Both the position numbers and the translations under genes were made by a program. A stretch of 60,877 nt of DNA from Opitutales bacterium. GTDB taxonomy: Bacteria > Verrucomicrobiota > Verrucomicrobiia > Opitutales > Oceanipulchritudinaceae. The notes beneath the pieces are model-generated. The model was not told where the DNA came from. It saw only the letters and a program-made list of their open reading frames with translations, and did not search any database. Within the stretch, counting starts at the first letter, position 1. Each line of letters starts with the position of its first letter. Location of the stretch: contig JAFIGH010000019.1 in NCBI GenBank assembly GCA_020831525.1, positions 1 to 60,877 on the forward strand, in the 5' to 3' direction. Shown in pieces: positions 45,352-55,447 of the stretch.

Positions 45352-46197
45352 TTACTGCTGCGGGAAGAAGCCCCATGCCCCGTCCTCCGCGGAATCGGCG
45401 GGCGGGAAGTAGAGCCATTTCCAGAGGTCCTCGCTCCAGATCCACGGGTCGTGTTCGACATGGAGGAGGCCGAGCCAGTCGCCGGTGTCGGCCACGCCGT
45501 CTTCGACGGGGAATCCGGCCCACGAGCGCGTCTCGGCCGGAACGGCGGCCAGTTCGATGGCGTTGAGGTGCTGGGCGTTGCCGCCGCCCTCGTCCGAGGT
45601 GTTTTCGAGAAGGATCCTGCCGGCACCGTCGGTGGAGAGCCCGGCGAAGGTGTGGACCATGCCGTCGTCGGGGTCGACCGTGATGCTGACTTCATCGGGC
45701 CCCGGTTGGGCGACCCACGCATGCGGATTGCGGTCGGTGGTGTTGGCGGAGAGAATGGAGAGGTCGTAGGTCAGGCTGTCGTCGAGGCCGCTGAAGATGA
45801 AGTGCTGCGGGGTGCGAACGTGAAAGGTGAGATTCTCCTGGACCTCGGCGGGTATGGCACCGGAGTAGGGGAAGGCGCGCCCGGCGTCGAAGGGCTCATC
45901 GCGCCCGCCGATGCCGAAGCGGTTCTCGACCGGATGCCCCATGCCTTCGCCTGCGATGGCGAGGGAAACGCCCGAAGCCGAGCCGTCGCCAAAGCGGATG
46001 AGGTTGTCGATGAGGATGCCCTCCGCGATGGTGGCGCCGCTGGGGGCCGAGACGTTGTTCCAGTTGTCACCAGCGATGTTGGTGTCTTTGGTGAAGTTGA
46101 CGGCGAGTACCTCGCCGGGCTGGATCTGCGCGGCGGCGGACGCGGTGAGGAGAGCGGCGGCCGTCAGGACGGTGGATTTCAAGTTTCGGGTAGGCAT
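45352..46197 (-). CDS. exported protein, paralogue B with tryptophan-rich tail
   Basis: A 281-residue exported protein, clear paralogue of the gene that follows it (FTKDTNIAGDNWNNVSAPSG, FIFSGLDDSLTYDLSILSAN, AQHLNAIELAAVPAE). Instead of PEP-CTERM it ends in TGDWLGLLHVEHDPWIWS, EDLWKWLYFPPADSAEDG, AWGFFPQQ, a tryptophan-rich tail I recall from Opitutae exported proteins. ATG 46197 (MPTRNLKS) is used; ATG 46203 adds two residues. It is divergent from lacI. Confidence 0.8.
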   Translation of the reverse strand: MPTRNLKSTVLTAAALLTASAAAQIQPGEVLAVNFTKDTNIAGDNWNNVSAPSGATIAEGILIDNLIRFGDGSASGVSLAIAGEGMGHPVENRFGIGGRDEPFDAGRAFPYSGAIPAEVQENLTFHVRTPQHFIFSGLDDSLTYDLSILSANTTDRNPHAWVAQPGPDEVSITVDPDDGMVHTFAGLSTDGAGRILLENTSDEGGGNAQHLNAIELAAVPAETRSWAGFPVEDGVADTGDWLGLLHVEHDPWIWSEDLWKWLYFPPADSAEDGAWGFFPQQ

Positions 46198-46319
46198 GAT
46201 CATTTGTGCGTTGAAGGTTGTTGCACCGGCTTGCCGTCGTCCGGGCAACCCGGAGATTTGTTCCAAAGGAGTCAGGTTCACTGTTGCCGGTGCCTCCGCC
46301 CCCCGGAAGCCCTTTTGGC

Positions 46320-46333
46320 TTGTAATTATACAA
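46320..46333. promoter_or_regulatory. candidate LacI-type operator / -10 region
   Basis: TTGTA-ATTA-TACAA is an inverted repeat with identical 5-bp arms, in the 158-bp gap between the divergent paralogue and lacI genes. On the minus strand the overlapping sequence reads TATAAT (46325-46330). A good -35 was not found. Confidence 0.38.
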
Positions 46334-46355
46334 AACGGGGTGAGGATGCCGTTCT

Positions 46356-47396
46356 GTGGATGCATCGAAGCGGCGGATTACCCTCAAGGATGTCGCCCGC
46401 GAGGCCGGGGTGAGCGTGATGACGGCCTCGTATGCGCTGCGCAATCATCCGGCGACGGCGGCGGCGACGCGTCAGCGGGTGAAAGCGGTGGCGGAGAAGA
46501 TAGGTTACCGACCGGATCCGGTCTTGGGGGCGTTGACGGCCTACCGCACCCGTGCGGGGGGCAAGCGCTTGAAGGGGGTCATCGGGGTTTTGGTCGACCA
46601 GCCTCCGCGCCAATGGGAGGCCCTCGCGTTTGGCGCGCAGGTAATGAGCGGATTGCGGCAGCGGGCGGAGGAACTGGGGTATACGGTGGAGTATTTTGAG
46701 ACCGGCGGCGGCATGAGTGCGAAGCGGACGACCTCGGTGCTGCGCAGCCGCGGAGTGCGTGGCCTCATCGTGGCGGCGCCGGCGGCGCCCGGTGCCTGCA
46801 TCGAGCTGGGTTGGGAGCATTTCTGCGCCGTGGGCATCGGTCGTTCGCTCGACTCGCCGTTGCTCGACTATGTCAGCGCAAACCAATACGAGTCCGGGCT
46901 GCGCATCATGAGCGAGCTGGCGGCGCGCGGGTACCGGCGCGCGGGATTTGTTTCGCCCATGCAGGTTGACGAACGCATCGGGCACCGCTTTCTAGCGGCG
47001 TATTTCGTGAGCCAGCAGGAGCTTTACGGAGCACCCGCGCTGGTCCCGCCGCTGCTCGACCATGCCAATGAGGCCGACGCTGTGTCACGGTGGCTTCGGC
47101 TGCATAAGCCGGACGCGGTGATCTCGGACGATGCTGTCATTCACTCCGTTCTCCGCCGGATCGGACTGCGGGTGCCGCGGGACATCGGTGTGGCGGTGAC
47201 GCGCCTGATGGATATTGAGACGGAATTGTCAGGAATTGTTCCCCGCCTGACGATGATCGGAGCCAAATCTGTCGAGTTTCTCCACGCGAAACTCCTCACC
47301 GGAGATACGGGCGTGCCCGAAGAGCGCACTGGTTCGGTCATCAGCGGATACTGGCATGAAGGCGCGACACTGCGCTCGCGCAGTGCTGCGGAATGA
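46356..47396 (+). CDS. LacI-family transcriptional regulator
   Basis: A 346-residue regulator. The HTH is ITLKDVAREAGVSVMTASYA then LRNHPATAAATRQRV; a periplasmic-binding-protein-like effector domain follows (GVIGVLVDQPPRQWEALAFG, GLIVAAPAAPGACIELGW, AARGYRRAGFVSPMQVDER, HKPDAVISDDAVIHSVLRR, IGVAVTRLM). The start is a GTG at 46356 with GGGGTGAGGA upstream; no ATG fits in frame. It is divergent from the paralogue/sulfatase/beta-helix genes and is their likely regulator. Confidence 0.9.
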   Translation: MDASKRRITLKDVAREAGVSVMTASYALRNHPATAAATRQRVKAVAEKIGYRPDPVLGALTAYRTRAGGKRLKGVIGVLVDQPPRQWEALAFGAQVMSGLRQRAEELGYTVEYFETGGGMSAKRTTSVLRSRGVRGLIVAAPAAPGACIELGWEHFCAVGIGRSLDSPLLDYVSANQYESGLRIMSELAARGYRRAGFVSPMQVDERIGHRFLAAYFVSQQELYGAPALVPPLLDHANEADAVSRWLRLHKPDAVISDDAVIHSVLRRIGLRVPRDIGVAVTRLMDIETELSGIVPRLTMIGAKSVEFLHAKLLTGDTGVPEERTGSVISGYWHEGATLRSRSAAE

Positions 47397-47460: not shown

Positions 47461-49665
47461 TCAAGTGAGCGCGAGGGAGATTTTGTTGCGCAGGTCGGTG
47501 CACCGTTCATTGCCTGAAGTATTGCGCACCGCCATGGCGTAGGCGGCGGGATCGCCGACGAGGATGACCTTCCGCCGCGCGCGGGTGATCGCTGTATAGA
47601 GGAGGTTGCGCTGGAGGAGAAGAAAGTGGGCGCGTACTAGCGGAAGCACGACAACCGGGAACTCGCTGCCCTGCGCTTTGTGAACGGTGACGGCGTAGGC
47701 GGGAATGAGTTCGCCGAGTTCCTCCGGCTTGTAGGCGATGCGCTCGCCTTCGAACTGTACGTGGATTTCTTCCTTTGCGGCATCTTGTGCGACGATGCGA
47801 CCGAGGTCGCCGTTGAAGACGCCCTTCTCGTAATTGTTACGGTTCTGTAGCACGCGGTCGCCAACGCGGAAAAGAAATGCGGCCCGGCCCGCCGCGACGG
47901 GCGTGCCGTGCGGATTCAGTGCCTGCTGGAGCGTTTGATTTAGGTTTGCGATCCCGGCGACGCCCCGGTGCATGGGGGCGAGGACCTGGAACTCCACCTC
48001 CCGGCCGAAAAACGCGGGCAACCGCTCGGCGCAGAGAGTGCGCACGGCGTCGAGGCACGCCTCGGGCGGCGGCGCGGCAAGCATCTGGATGTCGCGCTCC
48101 GGATCGACTTCGTCCGGCGTGCGGGCAAGGGGAGGGGGGCGCGTATCGCCCGCGAGAATTCGGTGGGCTACGGCGACAATGCTGCTGTCCTCGTCCTGAC
48201 GGTAGATCCGCGTGAGCGCGGTGGACGAGATACATCCTGAGGCGAGGGCGTCGTGGAGCACGTTGCCCGCCGCCACGCTGGGCAGTTGGTCGGCGTCGCC
48301 GACGAGGACGAGGTGCGCGCCGCCGGGGACCGCCTGGAAGAGGGCGGCCGCCATGCGGGTGTCGAGCATGCTCGCCTCGTCGATGATAAAGCAGTCGCCT
48401 TTGAGCGGGTTTGCCGCGTCGTGCACAAAGCCGCCCGCGACGGGATCGAACTTGAGCAACCGGTGGAGCGTGGAGGCGGGATGGCGGCAGCTCTCCGACA
48501 TTCGTTGGGCGGCGCGCCCCGTGGGTGCGGCGAGGACGATGCGCGCCTTTTTCGCGGCGAGGATTGACGTAAGGGCGCGGAGGATGGTGGTCTTTCCGGT
48601 GCCGGGACCGCCCGTGAGAATCGACACGGTGCCGGTGAGTGCGCGGCGCACGGCTTCGGCCTGTTCCGGAGCGAAACCAAAGCCGGCCCGCTGCTGCGCC
48701 CATGCCACGGCGGCGTCGACTTTGATGGGCGGGAGGCGCGAGCGGCCGCGCGCGAGGCGGTTGATGTGTTCCGCGATGGTCGTCTCCGCCCGCGCCGTAG
48801 CGGGAAGCTGGTACAGGCCGGGCCCGGCTTCGATGATGGTGTTTTCTTCGAGGAGGGCGGCGATTCTTTCGGCGAGGCGCGCGGGATCGCAATCAAGGAG
48901 TTTGGCGGCCGTGGCGACAGCTTCTTCGCGGGGAAACGCGGTGTGCCCTTCGTCCTCCATGGACCGAAGGGTGAAGATAAGGCCGGCGTCGATCCGCTCG
49001 GGCGAGTCGTTGGCAAAGCCGAGATTGAGGGCGATGCGGTCGGCGGTTTTGAATCCGATGCCTGGCACAGCGCGCGCCACCTCGTATGGATGGTTGCGCA
49101 GCATGGTCTGAGCGCCCGCGCCATAGCGGTCGATGAGCCGTTTGGAGAGAGAGGCGGAGACACCGTGTTGCTGCAGGAACACCATGACTTCGCGCTCGGC
49201 GCGCTGCGCGTCCCACGCCTTTTTGATCTCCGCGGCGCGCTTCGGGCCGATGCCTTCGACCTCGCGCAGGCGTCCGGACTCTTCGTCGATCACGCGAAGG
49301 GTTTCCGCGCCGAAGCAGTCGACGATCTTCTCGGCGTAGGTCTTGCCGATGCCTGGCACCAGACCGCTGCCCAAGTATTTGCGGATCCCGTACACGGTCG
49401 CGGGAAGCATGGAGCGGAAACGCTCGGCCTTGAACTGCCGCCCGTATTCGCGGTGCGTCGTCCACTGCCCGCGGACCTCAAGGGTCTCTCCGCACTGCAC
49501 GCCTGGCAGCGCGCCGACGACCGATACCGTTTCCCGCGATTTCTCCGGGCGCAACTCGCCCACGCAGTAGTGGGTCGACTCATTGTAATACACGATACGC
49601 TCCAGCACGCCCCGGAGCATCGATCCGTCGCGCCCGTCGCCCGCGCCCGCGCCGGTCTTTTCCAT
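47461..49665 (-). CDS. recD2: RecD2-type helicase
   Basis: A 734-residue SF1B 5'-3' DNA helicase of the RecD2/TraA class, not part of RecBCD. An OB-like N-terminus and helix-hairpin-helix motifs (LVPGIGKTYAEKIVDCFG, REVEGIGPKRAAEIKKAW, AVPGIGFKTADRIALNLG) precede the motor: Walker A ILTGGPGTGKTT, Walker B FIIDEASMLDTRM, LVLVGDADQLPSVAAGNVL, and motif VI VTVHKAQGSEFPVV, LLYTAITRARRKVILVGD. The RecD2-specific long N-terminal region is present. Confidence 0.95.
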   Translation of the reverse strand: MEKTGAGAGDGRDGSMLRGVLERIVYYNESTHYCVGELRPEKSRETVSVVGALPGVQCGETLEVRGQWTTHREYGRQFKAERFRSMLPATVYGIRKYLGSGLVPGIGKTYAEKIVDCFGAETLRVIDEESGRLREVEGIGPKRAAEIKKAWDAQRAEREVMVFLQQHGVSASLSKRLIDRYGAGAQTMLRNHPYEVARAVPGIGFKTADRIALNLGFANDSPERIDAGLIFTLRSMEDEGHTAFPREEAVATAAKLLDCDPARLAERIAALLEENTIIEAGPGLYQLPATARAETTIAEHINRLARGRSRLPPIKVDAAVAWAQQRAGFGFAPEQAEAVRRALTGTVSILTGGPGTGKTTILRALTSILAAKKARIVLAAPTGRAAQRMSESCRHPASTLHRLLKFDPVAGGFVHDAANPLKGDCFIIDEASMLDTRMAAALFQAVPGGAHLVLVGDADQLPSVAAGNVLHDALASGCISSTALTRIYRQDEDSSIVAVAHRILAGDTRPPPLARTPDEVDPERDIQMLAAPPPEACLDAVRTLCAERLPAFFGREVEFQVLAPMHRGVAGIANLNQTLQQALNPHGTPVAAGRAAFLFRVGDRVLQNRNNYEKGVFNGDLGRIVAQDAAKEEIHVQFEGERIAYKPEELGELIPAYAVTVHKAQGSEFPVVVLPLVRAHFLLLQRNLLYTAITRARRKVILVGDPAAYAMAVRNTSGNERCTDLRNKISLALT

Positions 49666-49762
49666 GACTCGAATTTCTGGAATACGTTCCGCCGCGTCAA
49701 GACCGCGGCGGAGCGGTCCTTTGCGCTTGCCTCGCGCCTGTCTCTGCGGGAAACCCGTGGAT

Positions 49763-50338
49763 ATGCAAATCCGCTGGACTGCGCTGCTATGGGTTGGCGT
49801 GTGCTTCGTGGCGAATTACGCGGTCGCCGCCCCGGAGCTGCGCATGCAGGACCTGGAGAGAACCGTCGAGAATCTGGAGCGGGCGCTGCGCGAGGCGCGC
49901 CGCCCGCATGCCGAAGCCATGCCGCGGCGGGACATGCCGCCGCCGCGCCGGATGAAAGTGCTGCCCCGCGAGGATGCGCGCCTGCACGGGGACGCCCCGA
50001 TCAATCCCGGGCGCGACCGTCCTGGTTTGCTGCGGCGAGCACCCGCCACCTCGTCGCCCCGTGAACGTGCCGACCGTCCGGTGGTGATGGATTGGTCGGG
50101 ACGGACCGCGCCTGAGCCCGGTTCATGGCGTCAGACCTCGAGGCGCGCCTCCGATATTGATGCCGCCGGGCAGGCGAGGCTCGTGGCAAACGCGCCGGTA
50201 GTGAGGGTTGACTTGGGGAGGCCGTCTTTGAGGGAAGCGCTCGAATCCGTTTCGTTGGAGGATGTGAACCGGTATGTTTTCCGGCGCAACCGTGCGGACA
50301 GCGACGGTCTGCCGTCCGTGCGGGCGGGCGGGGAGTAG
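49763..50338 (+). CDS. exported protein of unknown function
   Basis: A 191-residue protein with a signal peptide (TALLWVGVCFVANYAVAA). A short coiled segment follows (RMQDLERTVENLERALREAR), then a long Pro/Arg-rich, probably disordered region, and a C-terminal block SLREALESVSLEDVNRYVFR. I recognise no family. The upstream ATG at 49664 would add a stretch without homology, so 49763 is used. It converges on the RimK-like gene. Confidence 0.6.
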   Translation: MQIRWTALLWVGVCFVANYAVAAPELRMQDLERTVENLERALREARRPHAEAMPRRDMPPPRRMKVLPREDARLHGDAPINPGRDRPGLLRRAPATSSPRERADRPVVMDWSGRTAPEPGSWRQTSRRASDIDAAGQARLVANAPVVRVDLGRPSLREALESVSLEDVNRYVFRRNRADSDGLPSVRAGGE

Positions 50339-50371: not shown

Positions 50372-51340
50372 TCAGCGACCGTCCGCCGCGAAAGCGTCCG
50401 CGGCAAAAGCCACACGCGCTTCGGCGGGTTTCGGAAAGATCCCCGTGGCTTCGCGCTCGACTGTTTGCAGGCGCGGCAGCAGACCCTGCCCGCAGGCGAT
50501 CTGGATGCTCAGGCCGGGGCGGGCGTTCAGTTCGAGGACGAGCGGCCCTTTCTCCGCGTCGATAACGAGATCGACCCCGAGGTAGCCGAGGCCGGTGAGT
50601 TCGTAACACCGCGCGGCGAGGAGGAGGAGCGTCGGCCAGTCCGGCAGGGCAATATCGGTGAAGGCCATGCCGGTGTCGGGGTGCTCGGTGACAATGCGGT
50701 TGCGGCAGGTGGCGTGGATGGCCCGGCCCGTGGCGATATCGAGGCCCACGCCGATGGCACCTTGGTGGAGATTGGCGCGGCCGTCCGAGAGACTCGTCGA
50801 GAGCCGGAGCATGGCCATGACGGGATAGCCTTTGAAGACGAGGACCCGCACATCGGGCACGCCTTGGAAGCTCACTGTATCGAGAGGCGGCGCTGACCGC
50901 ACACGGTGTTCGATGATCGCCCGGTCGAGGTGTCCGCCGAGGCTATGCAGTCCGCTGAGGATGTTGGCGAGGTGGCGCTCAATCTGTGCGCGCGGGACGG
51001 GCTTTCCGTTGGTTTTGAGGTAATCGCCGCCGTTGCGCCCGACGAGCACCATGACGCCGTTGCCGCCGGCGCCCCGGGCGGGTTTGATGACGAACGAATC
51101 GTGCGCCGCCATGCGGTCGTGGAATCCGCGGATCTGGTGGTGGAACTCCACGGTCCCGTAAAGCGGCGGAATGGCAATCCCGGCTTCCATGGCGAGGCGT
51201 TTGGTGAAGAGTTTGTCGTCGACGCGCGGGTAAAGGCGGCGCGGGTTATGCTCCTGGATAAAGCGGTGGTTGCGTGCGTTGATGCCGAGGACGCCGCGCT
51301 CCCTGAGAATCCGCGGATGGATCCACTCCGGAAGTTTCAT
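50372..51340 (-). CDS. RimK-related ATP-grasp ligase
   Basis: A 322-residue ATP-grasp enzyme of the alpha-L-glutamate-ligase-like group (TIGR02291 type). Motifs: LGINARNHRFIQEHNPRRLY, FVIKPARGAGGNGVMVL (ATP-binding), and GVDLVIDAEKGPLVLELNAR followed by PGLSIQ (metal/ATP site). It begins inside the stop of the upstream membrane-protein gene (overlap 4 nt). Members form carboxylate-amine bonds, but the substrate of this subgroup is not known. Third gene of a conserved three-gene cassette. Confidence 0.88.
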   Translation of the reverse strand: MKLPEWIHPRILRERGVLGINARNHRFIQEHNPRRLYPRVDDKLFTKRLAMEAGIAIPPLYGTVEFHHQIRGFHDRMAAHDSFVIKPARGAGGNGVMVLVGRNGGDYLKTNGKPVPRAQIERHLANILSGLHSLGGHLDRAIIEHRVRSAPPLDTVSFQGVPDVRVLVFKGYPVMAMLRLSTSLSDGRANLHQGAIGVGLDIATGRAIHATCRNRIVTEHPDTGMAFTDIALPDWPTLLLLAARCYELTGLGYLGVDLVIDAEKGPLVLELNARPGLSIQIACGQGLLPRLQTVEREATGIFPKPAEARVAFAADAFAADGR

Positions 51341-52872
51341 GGTGCGGTCGGGGGAGCGAAGGGCAGGAACCGCCGCAGTTCGGTGAGCCGGTAGCCGCTG
51401 TAGGTCCCGAGTAGAAGTGTTGCGGCGAGCACGACAAGGAGCAGCTCGGGAAAGGTGTAAGTGGCGTGGCGGACCCATCCGATATTCATGCACAGGTAGG
51501 CGATGACAGCGACGAGAAGGCTGCCCCCGCCGCGCAGGAGGGCGGGCCGCGCGCCTTCCTCTTCCCACAAAATGGAGAGGCGCTCGATCGTCCATGCGAT
51601 GATAATCATGGGAAAGAAGGTCACTTTCATGCCCACGGGCAGGTCGAGGCGGTAGCTGACGAGGCTGAGGAAGGCCATCAGTCCGATGACGACGATGACG
51701 ACGGCGGACACCCGCGCGACGACGAGGAGATTGAGGTGCGAGAGAAGGGCGCGGATGGCAAGGCCGCTGCCGACGACAACAACGAAGAGAACGATGCCGG
51801 GCAGGAGCCGTGTCTCCTGAAAGGCGAGGGCTATGAGGATGGGCATGAACGTGCCCGAAGTCGTTGCCCCGACGACGTTGCGCAAGAACACGATGACGAG
51901 CGCGCCGAACGGTACGAGCATGAGGCGCTTGAAGACGTTCTGCTCCTCGATGGGGAGTTCGTAGATGGAAAAATTGATGAGCGCGGAGTCGGCCGCTTCC
52001 GCCCGTTCGCGTGCAAGCTCACCCAGCGGACGGCTTTCGCGGAGGACAGAGAAGCGCACCTGGGAGCCTTCGCCGCCGGAAAGATCGAGCAGAGAGACTC
52101 CTCCGCGTTGCCAAAGGAAAAAGTCATGCGGCTTGCCCTCCGCACCCGTCGCGGGATCGAAATACACCCACCCTTCGTTGCCGTCCCACAGCTCAAAGCC
52201 GGGAATGACGGGCTGGAAGCGCCGGCCTTCGACGAGGCGGATGCCCCTTGTCATTCGTGTGGCGATGCCTTCGGCGGCGAGGAGATCCCGCGGGAGTTGC
52301 ACCCGTGCTTCGGCATCCTGAGCGTCGCGCAGGAGCATTTCCACGTTTTGATCGCCGCCGGGGTTGTTTAGGAGGTAGAGCAGTTGCGTGGCCAAGCTGC
52401 GCGGATCGGCGGAGCGCTCCCGTGCGGCCGTGATCAGGCTCGCGGCGGCGACGCGTTGCGGTTGCTCGAAGTATGGGGGCGGAGGGTCCGCCGGTGCTTG
52501 TCCGGGTTCTTCGCCGCCCCGCTGGCGGGCGAGCTGCACGCGGTAGTAGAGGGTCTGCGGTCCTTCCGCTTCGCGGCGGGTCCACACGGCGCGGGCTTCG
52601 CCGCCGTTTTCGCTGCGGGTAAAGCCGTAGCCGGGGGACGCGAAATTTTCGCGCAGCACAGTGAATTCACGGGAAACGCGGGGAAGAGCAAACGAGGCGC
52701 GGACGGGTGCGCCCGTCCCTCTGAAGGATATCTCCGCCTCCACAGTCCAGACATCCTCCGCCCCCGCACGGGTGAGCGGGTAGCCGTAGGCTACAGATTT
52801 ATATGCCGTAAGACCGATTCCCGCGAGGGCGAGCAGTCCGCAGATCAAGTAGACCTGGAGGCGGGTCGACAT
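51337..52872 (-). CDS. inactive-transglutaminase / seven-helix membrane protein (UUP1 type)
   Basis: A 511-residue protein. An N-terminal helix (LQVYLICGLLALAGIGLTAY) and a large soluble, inactive transglutaminase-like region up to about residue 280 are followed by about seven helices (LMLVPFGALVIVFL, GTFMPILIALAFQETRLL, AVVIVVIGLMAFLSLVSYRL, SLLVAVIAYLCMNIGW and others). It matches proteins described as inactive transglutaminase fused to 7TM. It sits between the retropepsin-like lipoprotein and the RimK-like ligase with a 14-bp gap and a 4-base overlap, so the three are co-transcribed. Confidence 0.88.
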   Translation of the reverse strand: MSTRLQVYLICGLLALAGIGLTAYKSVAYGYPLTRAGAEDVWTVEAEISFRGTGAPVRASFALPRVSREFTVLRENFASPGYGFTRSENGGEARAVWTRREAEGPQTLYYRVQLARQRGGEEPGQAPADPPPPYFEQPQRVAAASLITAARERSADPRSLATQLLYLLNNPGGDQNVEMLLRDAQDAEARVQLPRDLLAAEGIATRMTRGIRLVEGRRFQPVIPGFELWDGNEGWVYFDPATGAEGKPHDFFLWQRGGVSLLDLSGGEGSQVRFSVLRESRPLGELARERAEAADSALINFSIYELPIEEQNVFKRLMLVPFGALVIVFLRNVVGATTSGTFMPILIALAFQETRLLPGIVLFVVVVGSGLAIRALLSHLNLLVVARVSAVVIVVIGLMAFLSLVSYRLDLPVGMKVTFFPMIIIAWTIERLSILWEEEGARPALLRGGGSLLVAVIAYLCMNIGWVRHATYTFPELLLVVLAATLLLGTYSGYRLTELRRFLPFAPPTAP

Positions 52873-52886
52873 GGTACCGGGCGCGG

Positions 52887-53573
52887 TTACCGTCCGTCGT
52901 CGCGGGCGTCTTCATCGGTCTGCGCGTCGTCCGGATCGACGGTGCCGGGAAGGTCGCCGCAGGGCGGGCGGCCGCTGATGAACGTCTGTTCGGAATCGAC
53001 GAGAGCGAGGCCGCGGAGGAAGCGCCGCCCGATGAGGACTTGATAGACGAAGTTGCTCCGGTCGGCGAGGGTGAACTCCGCCTTCTGGTGGATATCGCCG
53101 AGGCGTACTTCAAGTTCGACGACGGGGCGGCGGTCCGGGTCGTCCTCGTGCCGCACAATGCGAACATTGCGGGCGATGGGCCGTTCGAGGAGCACCCGTT
53201 CCTCGGTCGCTGGATCAATGATCTCGAAACGCACCCAGCGGTCGCCGTCGCGCTCGAACCGTTCCAGGTTCATGGCGTTCATCGACGAAGTGAGGGCGCC
53301 GGTGTCGAGTTTGGCTTTCATACGCACGCCCTCGGGATCGAGGCAGATCCACTCTACCCAGCCGAGCGCGTACCGTTCGTCGAGCGGAAGCTCAGCGTCG
53401 TCGCCTTCCTCTTCCGTTTGATCTGGTTCGACCGCTTCTTCGTCCGGTTGTGTGGGCTCGTCCCCTTCCGGCGGGTCGCTGACGGGCGTTTGACAGCCGG
53501 CAAGCGCGAGCAGGAGCAAAAAGAAGAAAAACCGGAGAACTCGGTTTGGATACGACGGAAAGTAACAGGCCAT
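52887..53573 (-). CDS. retropepsin-like (RimB/'ATP-dependent zinc protease') lipoprotein
   Basis: A 228-residue lipoprotein: hydrophobic signal LRFFFFLLLLALAGC (lipobox Cys27), then an acidic low-complexity spacer of about 35 residues, then the protease-like domain. D90-T-G-A (KAKLDTGALTSSMNA) is the catalytic aspartate block of the single-Asp retropepsin fold; SNFVYQVLIGRRFLRG matches the conserved C-terminal block. The lipid anchor and the spacer are unusual for a family often found in the cytosol with RimK. Confidence 0.85.
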   Translation of the reverse strand: MACYFPSYPNRVLRFFFFLLLLALAGCQTPVSDPPEGDEPTQPDEEAVEPDQTEEEGDDAELPLDERYALGWVEWICLDPEGVRMKAKLDTGALTSSMNAMNLERFERDGDRWVRFEIIDPATEERVLLERPIARNVRIVRHEDDPDRRPVVELEVRLGDIHQKAEFTLADRSNFVYQVLIGRRFLRGLALVDSEQTFISGRPPCGDLPGTVDPDDAQTDEDARDDGR

Positions 53574-53613: not shown

Positions 53614-54447
53614 TCAACCGTGCGCACCGCCGCTGCGTTCCGGGGCGGGGGGGGCGGCGAGGCGGTTGGCCACCCAACCGGCGGCGAGGAAGCCGAAGGT
53701 GCCGGTGACAAAGGCGGCGGCACCATAGCCCGTGGCACAGTCGAGTTTCATCGACCCGTCGGCGGGGCCGGGTGCGCAACCGCTTGCCGCTTGCCGCGGA
53801 TCGACGGGCAGTTCCGGGGAGAAGACGCAGGCCACGCGGAAGCGGGCGCGCTCTGCCTTTGGAAAGCCGTATTCGCGGCGAAGGATTTTGCGCAGGCGTG
53901 CCAGGAGGGGGTCGTTGTAGGCACGGCCGAGATCTTCGACGCGGACGTCCTCCGGTCTTCGCTTGCCGCCCGCCCCGCCCGCGCAAACGAGCGGAATATT
54001 GCGGCGGCGGCACTCCGCGACAAGGAAGGCCTTGTGCGGCACGCTGTCGATGGCGTCGACAATGGCGTCGAAGCCTTCGTCGAGGAAAGCCGCGCCGTTG
54101 GTCCGCGTGAAGAAGGCCTCGTGCGAATCGACGGCGCAGTCCGGTGAGATCGCGGCGATGCGTTCGCGCATGACGCCGGTCTTCGTCCGGCCCACGGTGT
54201 CGTCGAGGGCGTGGATCTGGCGGTTGATGTTGCTCTCGCAGATGTCGTCCAGGTCGACGAGCGTCAGGCTGCCGATGCCCGTGCGGGCGAGGGCTTCCGC
54301 CGCCCACGAACCCACGCCGCCGAGCCCGATGACGGCCGCGCGGGCCGCCGCCAGCCTCGCCGCGCCCGCCTCGCCGTAGAGCCGTGCCACACCGAGAAAC
54401 CGGCGGTCCGTTGTCCGCCGCTCCGTTGCGGGAAGATCCGGTTCCAC
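53614..54447 (-). CDS. tcdA: tRNA threonylcarbamoyladenosine dehydratase
   Basis: Cyclises t6A37 of tRNA to ct6A with ATP. The product (about 277 residues) has the E1-like nucleotide-binding block VIGLGGVGSWAAEALARTG, VDLDDICESNINRQIHAL, VPHKAFLVAECRRRNIPLV and CAGGAGGKRRPEDVRVEDL. The C-terminal stretch ends in a hydrophobic segment typical of TcdA. The GTG at 54447 avoids overlap with the upstream flavoprotein gene; an ATG at 54492 would overlap it by 35 bp. Confidence 0.9.
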   Translation of the reverse strand: MEPDLPATERRTTDRRFLGVARLYGEAGAARLAAARAAVIGLGGVGSWAAEALARTGIGSLTLVDLDDICESNINRQIHALDDTVGRTKTGVMRERIAAISPDCAVDSHEAFFTRTNGAAFLDEGFDAIVDAIDSVPHKAFLVAECRRRNIPLVCAGGAGGKRRPEDVRVEDLGRAYNDPLLARLRKILRREYGFPKAERARFRVACVFSPELPVDPRQAASGCAPGPADGSMKLDCATGYGAAAFVTGTFGFLAAGWVANRLAAPPAPERSGGAHG

Positions 54448-54457
54448 CGCTTCGCGT

Positions 54458-55447
54458 CTACAAGGGGCGCGTGAGCGCCTGTGCAAGAGCATATCCGCTC
54501 ATGGCCGAAGCCTCGATGCGCGGTCCGCCGAAGCCGTCCCCGCACATGCCGAGGTGATGATCCTCGTCGAGGAAGTATGTCTTGCGGAAAGGCTGCTTTT
54601 CTTTGTAGATGCGTTTCGGTTCGGTGAATCCCCAGCGGTGCGCCACCGCGTCGACGACGTCATTCTTAAGAAACGGTTTGGCGGCATTGAGTAGCACGGG
54701 AATGCGCTCTTCGTCCGGAGCGTCCCAATAGCGCTCCGCGAATTGCGGTGAGCTTGTGATCGATACCGACCCCGGGGTCGGCGAAACGCCCTTGGCCGAG
54801 TTGTCGCCGATCCAGCGAAGGACGGGGTGGTTGAGGTCCATCGCACCGGGATTGGATAGCCCCGCCGGGCCGCTGAGCTGGGCCATAACCGAGATGGCGC
54901 GGAAGTAAGTGATCCGCTCCAGCTCTTCTTCCTCGTCGAAGTCGATCTGGATGTTGCTCGTTTGAAGCAAGGTGAGGGCCTGCGGAACCGGCGCCGTGAT
55001 GACGAGGCAATCGGCCTTGTAGCTATTGTCCTTGTCCTCGCCGTATTTTCGGGCCGTGACGGTCCACTTTCCGTTCTTGAACCGGATCTTCGTCACTTTC
55101 TCGGAGAGATGGACATTCAGGTCTTTCGCCAGCTCCCGTGGAATGGTCGACATCCCGTTGACACCCACGTAGCGCATGTTGCCGAGCGCGCCTTTGTACC
55201 ACGGGCGGGCGATGCCCCGGTCCATCCAGCCCTCGACCATTTCACGGAAGATCGAGTCGCGCGTCGTGACGAACTGTGCCCCGTGGTCGAAGATGGATTT
55301 GTCGATGGTTCGCGTGGCCATACGGCCCCCGTGGTGCCGTCCTTTGTCAAGAAGGAGGACGTCCACGTGGTGGCGTTTCAAATGTGCGGCGGCAATCAGT
55401 CCACTGATTCCGGCGCCTATGATGATACAGGAATGCGGCGCATTCAT
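54458..55447 (-). CDS. FAD-dependent amine-oxidase-like (renalase-type) oxidoreductase
   Basis: A 329-residue flavoprotein. FAD-binding GAGISGLIAAAHLKRHH followed by LLLDKGRHHGGRMATR; RFAD-like C-terminus with MCGDGFGGPRIEASAMSGYA. The layout (short, GGRMATR, C-terminal GD-FGG) resembles renalase-type NAD(P)/FAD oxidoreductases. The substrate is unknown. Next upstream on the same strand is another amine-oxidase-like gene. Confidence 0.85.
   Translation of the reverse strand: MNAPHSCIIIGAGISGLIAAAHLKRHHVDVLLLDKGRHHGGRMATRTIDKSIFDHGAQFVTTRDSIFREMVEGWMDRGIARPWYKGALGNMRYVGVNGMSTIPRELAKDLNVHLSEKVTKIRFKNGKWTVTARKYGEDKDNSYKADCLVITAPVPQALTLLQTSNIQIDFDEEEELERITYFRAISVMAQLSGPAGLSNPGAMDLNHPVLRWIGDNSAKGVSPTPGSVSITSSPQFAERYWDAPDEERIPVLLNAAKPFLKNDVVDAVAHRWGFTEPKRIYKEKQPFRKTYFLDEDHHLGMCGDGFGGPRIEASAMSGYALAQALTRPL

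Follow-up and report, generated by a model that had tools for sequence, protein, structure and literature searches.

The closest described relative of the genes considered here is the rloABC operon, named in Pseudomonas aeruginosa by Lormand et al. in 2025. There it is reported to influence how cells survive low salt, form biofilm and tolerate antibiotics, and its mutants are sensitive to beta-lactams and altered in shape (PMC12239564). We describe an operon of this type at positions 50372–53573, minus strand, of a 60,877-nucleotide stretch of DNA (the window), which is one entire contig (JAFIGH010000019.1) of the 5.3 Mb genome of an Opitutales bacterium (phylum Verrucomicrobiota). Its three genes are transcribed in the order protease, membrane protein, ATP-grasp ligase.

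In the published text, P. aeruginosa RloA in vitro cut reporters carrying 8 or 10 glutamates and left those with 6 or fewer uncut, and mutation of R114 and R137 impaired polyglutamate cutting most (PMC12239564). Loss of rloB or rloC fully rescued the low-salt defect of a triple protease mutant and partly rescued its other defects (PMC12239564). The compartments of the Pseudomonas Rlo proteins are, like ours, predictions, and poly-alpha-glutamate is discussed as one option; the main text makes no mention of PgsC, CapC, export, flippase, lipoprotein or Verrucomicrobi, and it gives 96% of RloB hits as Proteobacteria, so that members in other phyla are not excluded by the paper (PMC12239564). RimK and RimB of S6 modification are both described there as cytosolic (PMC12239564). 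In the open-access literature, a coverage that leaves aside preprints and most subscription journals, we recognised no other papers on the rlo mechanism. Gene neighbourhoods of this kind were reportedly described early on, by Iyer et al. in 2009.

A preliminary description of this DNA had proposed an envelope peptide-modification system. The idea is sound and agrees with the predicted compartments and genetic linkage described in Pseudomonas, but it is not new: the operon and its envelope reading were already in print in 2025 (PMC12239564), and the three genes look like ordinary members of this type. The further suggestion that the membrane protein connects protease and ligase is plausible. 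What is new here are the members in Verrucomicrobiota, a recurrent lipobox on RloA, conserved charged residues of RloB at its predicted cytosolic side, and a negative result for a conserved small peptide near the operon.

Identity and conservation of the operon

Pfam matches and a lipobox bear out the three genes that the preliminary description had placed here, a lipoprotein retropepsin, a seven-transmembrane (7TM) protein with an inactive transglutaminase domain and an ATP-grasp ligase, and together these are an rloABC operon:

52887–53573, minus strand: rloA-type gene, lipoprotein retropepsin-like aspartic peptidase, 228 amino acids (aa) (PF05618, 4.7e-38)
51337–52872, minus strand: rloB-type gene, one transmembrane helix, outer inactive transglutaminase domain and 7TM domain, 511 aa (PF14402, PF14400)
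50372–51340, minus strand: rloC-type gene, ATP-grasp ligase without visible export signal, 322 aa (PF14397, TIGR02291)
51337–51340, minus strand: ATGA, 4 bases shared by the rloB stop and the rloC start (sequence)

Gene anatomy, family membership, linkage and the preservation of catalytic residues are established here. The genes had been said to overlap tightly, which holds for the RloB/RloC pair, sharing 4 bases, and not for RloA and RloB, which lie 14 bases apart. The ATGA overlap is found in 19 of 44 loci, the window's own counted and starts being chosen by script. A 407-aa ligase open reading frame (ORF) from 51595 was rejected as too long: its first 85 residues are an other-frame reading over RloB, and in 19 of the 43 other loci a stop before RloC closes the frame where the match to this long version begins. 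The real start is the ATG at 51340, giving 322 aa.

Co-occurrence of the three families was evaluated in 288 genomes of Verrucomicrobiota. PF14402 (RloB) was matched in 33 genomes, TIGR02291 (RloC) in 32 over its cut-off and in 46 at E ≤0.001, and PF05618 in 48. None of 14 control genomes, E. coli among them, has a PF14402 match. All 32 genomes with an over-cut-off RloC carry RloB with RloC directly downstream (32 of 33 RloB genomes), and RloA lies no more than 2 kb upstream of RloB on the same strand in 31 of the 33. The 33rd RloB genome (G169) holds the first 83 positions of RloC followed by a stretch reading N; an apparent giant RloC fusion in this genome is an artefact, the remainder of the gene lying in that stretch. 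A scan of named genomes yielded 14 loci from Opitutales, Zooshikella, Methylophaga and one Cellvibrionales bin. RloA stands upstream of RloB in 42 of the first 44 loci and the remaining two start too near RloB to tell; on a larger piece of the genome of one of these (L056), RloA is found 634 bases upstream. The spacing between RloB and RloC is at most 30 bases in 43 of 44 loci, and 195 in the other (L011). Recurrence of the A-B-C order in two phyla argues that the cassette is not due to chance. Similarities of the three proteins across 30 chosen loci are correlated (r 0.72, 0.84 and 0.83, with 0 of 999 permutations as high), for which shared species history alone can suffice.

A close relative, an Opitutales bin (L032), has an RloB segment 95% and a RecD2 91% identical to those of the window; its RloB frame is broken, perhaps by an assembly error. 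Outside Opitutales, Zooshikella is closest to the window RloB by identity (48–49%). The tree branch that would decide on horizontal transfer is unsettled (support 81/59), and we claim no direction. A conserved small peptide near the cassette, a prospect raised in the preliminary description, was not found by BLAST (E ≤1e-6) among ORFs of at least 40 codons (≥40 aa) in 25 loci of 4–15 kb, a search that would miss shorter or faster-changing peptides. The families recurring in at least three clades across those loci were RloA, RloB, RloC and frames overlapping them.

A proposed write-and-erase pathway

We lean, with moderate confidence, towards a pathway in which RloC synthesises a glutamate chain that RloB then hands over or displays across the membrane, to be trimmed by RloA. 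RloC, a cytosolic ATP-grasp amide ligase, would build or attach an L-glutamate chain, either on a carrier or as a free chain. RloB would receive this product and either move it across the inner membrane or present it on the outer face, and the chain may there be held by the dead transglutaminase domain of RloB. Lipid-anchored RloA would cut the chain in the envelope, limiting its length or amount. RloB and RloC would be the writers and RloA the eraser.

Several considerations lead to this arrangement. RloC needs ATP and so would act inside; with RloC inside and RloA outside, the product, or else a carrier that has been modified, has to get through the inner membrane, and the operon offers no candidate for that step other than RloB. 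On the simplest view of the published rescue, RloB and RloC make something that does harm unless RloA cuts it. The specificity of RloA and the distant kinship of RloC with RimK suggest glutamate as the mark. We infer that glutamate is the RloC substrate, that RloB carries out the transfer and that the operon works in the same way in this organism.

RloA is a predicted lipoprotein with probable polyglutamate-cutting residues

Two features of the protease bear on its location and activity:

53493–53495, minus strand: lipobox cysteine C27 (LALAGC, +2 residue Q), from sequence and pattern scan
53304–53306, minus strand: catalytic aspartate D90 of the DTGA motif, from alignment of RloA rows

The RloA signal peptide ends LALAGC-Q, and the predicted export signal and lipobox uphold the lipid anchor previously proposed; the protease domain is accordingly predicted, from its signal, to face outwards. 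The pattern, which we take to describe a lipobox, was found with an upstream start codon in 25 of the 35 RloA sequences having a complete 5' end, a count that leaves out 8 sequences cut by a locus edge as well as duplicates and rows without RloA. The 10 negatives include both Zooshikella sequences and one same-class genome, and several of them nearly fit the pattern. D90, G92, A93, R149 and R172 are invariant in all 45 aligned RloA rows (one genome being present twice), and T91 is kept in 42 of 45. Because their spacing of 23 is identical, R149 and R172 probably answer to the glutamate-holding R114 and R137 of P. aeruginosa.

In the PDB, the protease matches 9g58_A (2.4e-23) and 9g59_A (6.6e-21), both named putative ATP-dependent zinc protease domain, which we presume to be the RloA structures of the Pseudomonas study. 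Its best NCBIfam match is RloA3 (136.6 bits vs a cut-off of 210), with RloA2 at 99.4 bits (250) and RloA at 98.9 (280); the RloB model matches the membrane protein with 369.6 bits over positions 5–505 of 508, vs a cut-off of 900. Three of these four models are of the type 'exception'. The cut-offs were presumably chosen with Pseudomonas-type proteins in view, and so restrict the gene names and not the operon type.

RloC is an ATP-grasp ligase distinct from RimK

The ligase matches PF14397 at 3.1e-88 and TIGR02291 with 418.1 bits, over the cut-off of 314.2. The preliminary description had called it RimK-type, and it is indeed an ATP-grasp protein matched by the RimK family PF08443 (1.3e-08, the best stretch covering positions 134–170 of 188), but it is not RimK itself: its best Pfam family is PF14397, and it scores 40.2 bits with the NCBIfam RimK family model (cut-off 143.4) and 20.4 with the S6 ligase model (cut-off 331). 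K43, K86, D257, E270 and N272 are invariant in 45 of 45 RloC rows and are common to the genome's own RimK.

PF14397 is the 'sugar-transfer associated' ATP-grasp family, and this membership, like the beta-lactam sensitivity and altered cell shape of the P. aeruginosa mutants, speaks for a route without any glutamate polymer. In it, RloC would couple a single amino acid or a short peptide, at the inner face, to a wall precursor or lipid-linked glycan, RloB would flip or handle this product and RloA would trim the peptide. We consider this unlikely in view of the length preference of RloA, which cut the 8- and 10-glutamate reporters and not those of 6 or fewer, and of the 25 loci, where no family beyond RloA, RloB and RloC recurs beside the operon in at least three clades.

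RloB combines a dead transglutaminase domain with a 7TM domain

The 511-aa membrane protein is matched by PF14402 (1.3e-102) and PF14400 (3.9e-50), both over cut-off. It consists of one helix, a large outer domain (30–305) and a hydrophobic C-terminal part with, by family, seven helices:

51958–52785, minus strand: inactive transglutaminase region, residues 30–305 (AlphaFold2 model match, lost catalytic residues)
51358–51957, minus strand: 7TM region, residues 306–505 (PF14402, conserved charged residues)

An AlphaFold2 model of whole RloB (pLDDT, the predicted local distance difference test, 72.5; pTM, the predicted template modelling score, 0.57; 14 sequences) matches the entry 3isr (annotated as putative cysteine protease) with Z 15.8 over 217 residues, and transglutaminases are among the next, lower rows. 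The catalytic triad and its alignment columns were placed from what we take to be the transglutaminase motif. In the window's RloB, V and I occupy the Cys and His columns and D the Asp column, and across 40 rows Cys is kept in 1, His in 1 and Asp in 15; with Cys and His absent the domain looks dead, as the preliminary description had stated. Two deep-branching RloB relatives (L053 and L054, from G118 and G185) match Transglut_core in place of PF14400.

R331, R374, R387, E430, R431, E437, E438, R495, E498 and R501 are at least 95% conserved in 40 RloB rows. Of the 13 positions at least 90% conserved as D/E/K/R/H/N/Q/W, 11 fall in segments assigned to the cytosol, Q447 adjoins one and W427 lies outside, and mean conservation is 0.68 in the assigned-cytosolic segments, against 0.49 for the outer 7TM loops and 0.41 for the transglutaminase domain, the sides having been assigned manually with hydropathy and the model helices as guides. 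The nearly invariant charged residues of RloB are thus at its predicted cytosolic side. The C-terminus, of motif GYRxxELxRF, is also expected on that side.

This distribution, with an outer domain that varies, would also suit a receptor: the RloB transglutaminase domain would bind a periplasmic glutamate-rich or cell-wall peptide and signal to RloC to modify a cytosolic protein, and RloA would remove the peptide. Inactive enzyme domains are often binding modules, and no transporter fold was found for the 7TM domain, both of which count in its favour. An RloA outside the cell membrane would be unable to erase a cytosolic mark, however, and a harmful exported product explains more simply why losing rloB or rloC rescues the protease mutant. 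We regard a receptor as improbable and prefer the passage of a glutamate chain by RloB.

A more specific form of that preferred pathway makes RloB the export partner of a poly-alpha-glutamate ligase and the functional counterpart, in diderms, of PgsC of poly-gamma-glutamate capsules: RloB and RloC would load the periplasm with an anionic glutamate polymer that lipid-anchored RloA cuts back and that, when uncut, swells the periplasm and kills cells in low salt; we offer it tentatively and think it rather doubtful. By eye, the RloB 7TM domain and CapC look alike in a motif where conserved arginines come after glycines and a proline. Homology of the two did not pass shuffled and reversed controls. 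When the 40-row RloB 7TM alignment was compared by hhalign with 16 CapC sequences (both repeats from 7 proteins, plus 2 single PgsC), E was 0.033 with a probability of 1.6%, and smaller CapC sets gave E 0.12–0.3; reversed controls reached E 0.11 (full set) and 0.023 (second repeats), and after block-shuffling 21 of 100 CapC alignments still reached the score of the unshuffled one. With hmmscan, PF14102 was matched in 1 of 40 RloB members at E 8.1. Across 1797 ORFs of the loci and window, a CapC hidden Markov model (HMM) placed three RloB at ranks 31–33 (E 2.6–4.4, not significant), below 29 CapC rows and one other ORF. The likeness of RloB to PgsC is a lead only.

Structure comparison of the 7TM domain modelled alone (pLDDT 76.0, pTM 0.70, 15 sequences) gave no Foldseek match at E ≤0.001 in PDB or BFVD. 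RnfA and NqrD/E recur as fold matches (Z 5.4–7.5 with the domain, 5.8–7.4 with the whole model), tied with unrelated helical rows; the best Rnf/Nqr match has Z 7.5 over 153 residues at a root-mean-square deviation of 4.8, and hhalign of RloB against 28 Rnf/Nqr sequences gave E 0.46.

Observations that weigh against the pathway

To the PF14397 membership of RloC and the hand-set sides of RloB must be added several further points against the pathway we propose. RloB has no demonstrable transporter relative, since the PgsC comparison failed its controls and the 7TM fold matches are within noise. The open-access literature covered here yielded no report of ligase activity for any RloC. PF05618 finds no match in one genome that holds both RloB and RloC (G185, 86% complete), and in another (G118) the only PF05618 match sits on another contig. 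One cysteine of the disulfide pair reported for periplasmic orthologs (PMC12239564) is apparently Arg in the window RloA, if the pair has been identified correctly from the 9g58 alignment. Finally, P. aeruginosa lacking rloB or rloC alone is reported to show defects as well (PMC12239564), which implies that the product is not merely harmful.

Neighbouring genes

Convergent to rloC lies a gene (49664–50338, plus strand; 191 aa from an inner ATG) for a predicted exported protein of isoelectric point 11.0 with no Pfam match, refound only in L032 with 56% identity, vs 91% for RecD2; many loci are too short for this comparison. A TcdA-like (ThiF family) gene (53614–54492, minus strand) stands 40 bases upstream of rloA on the same strand, is perhaps co-transcribed with it, and among the loci compared again recurs only in L032. 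Further away, 45352–46365 (minus strand) encodes a 337-aa protein with no Pfam match and a tryptophan-rich C-terminal end.

Comparison with known systems

Like the RimK-RimB system, the cassette pairs an ATP-grasp ligase with a retropepsin-like peptidase, the ligase residues and DTGA motif being common to both; unlike the cassette, RimK-RimB has no membrane protein. The kinship of RloA with RimB and of RloC with RimK would be expected if the cassette were itself an S6 modification system with an incidental membrane protein gene. The preliminary description had set the cassette apart from S6 modification, and the rest of the genome bears this out. Its only other PF05618 match adjoins its best RimK match on contig C57, where the protease is RimB-like (85.2 bits vs a cut-off of 200) with no visible signal peptide, and the ligase is RimK-like, with 218.5 bits for the family model (cut-off 143.4) and 286 for the S6 ligase model (cut-off 331). 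A RimK-RimB system would comprise a protease without signal peptide and a RimK ligase over cut-off, and the cassette has neither. RloB also lies between the protease and ligase genes in two phyla. Given the export signal on RloA and the separate pair, the S6 explanation is in the main already refuted, and we consider it extremely improbable. The RimK-like ligase on C57 (L055 4328–5443) has a TrkA_C domain after its ATP-grasp domain.

PgsB-PgsC is comparable only in how it works: its ligase adjoins a polytopic membrane protein, and the system makes a glutamate polymer. Unlike ATP-grasp RloC, PgsB is of the Mur-ligase type, and Mur_ligase_M matches the PgsB genes of both L045 and L067. In these two Verrucomicrobiota loci (G132 and G328), PgsB (TIGR04012) adjoins PgsC (TIGR04011), both over cut-off, a pair that by its family matches is a predicted poly-gamma-glutamate system in the phylum. 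Six further loci (L084–L089; L090 is cut) hold open frames of 688–1089 aa with two tandem CapC (PF14102) repeats followed by a long Pfam-less part, and a scan of the neighbours of these genes in L084, L086 and L087 gave no Mur-ligase match.

Pseudomonas rloABC remains the nearest counterpart. Both operons have the same three families in the same order on one strand, with an exported retropepsin, an inactive transglutaminase joined to 7TM helices and a cytosolic ATP-grasp protein as predicted products, and both genomes carry a rimB-rimK-like pair elsewhere. The window differs in its host, a member of Verrucomicrobiota and not of Gammaproteobacteria, in an RloA that is a predicted lipoprotein and seems to lack one cysteine of the reported disulfide pair, and in proteins that score below the NCBIfam RloA and RloB cut-offs. 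Its genome has one RloA-type gene, the second PF05618 gene being RimB-like, where P. aeruginosa has three. A distant rloABC of just three genes, from a genome with one RloA-type gene, would make the write-and-erase idea testable in a laboratory host without the operon. For the window itself the result is a good but ordinary annotation, a member of the Pseudomonas operon type from another phylum with a lipid-anchored protease.

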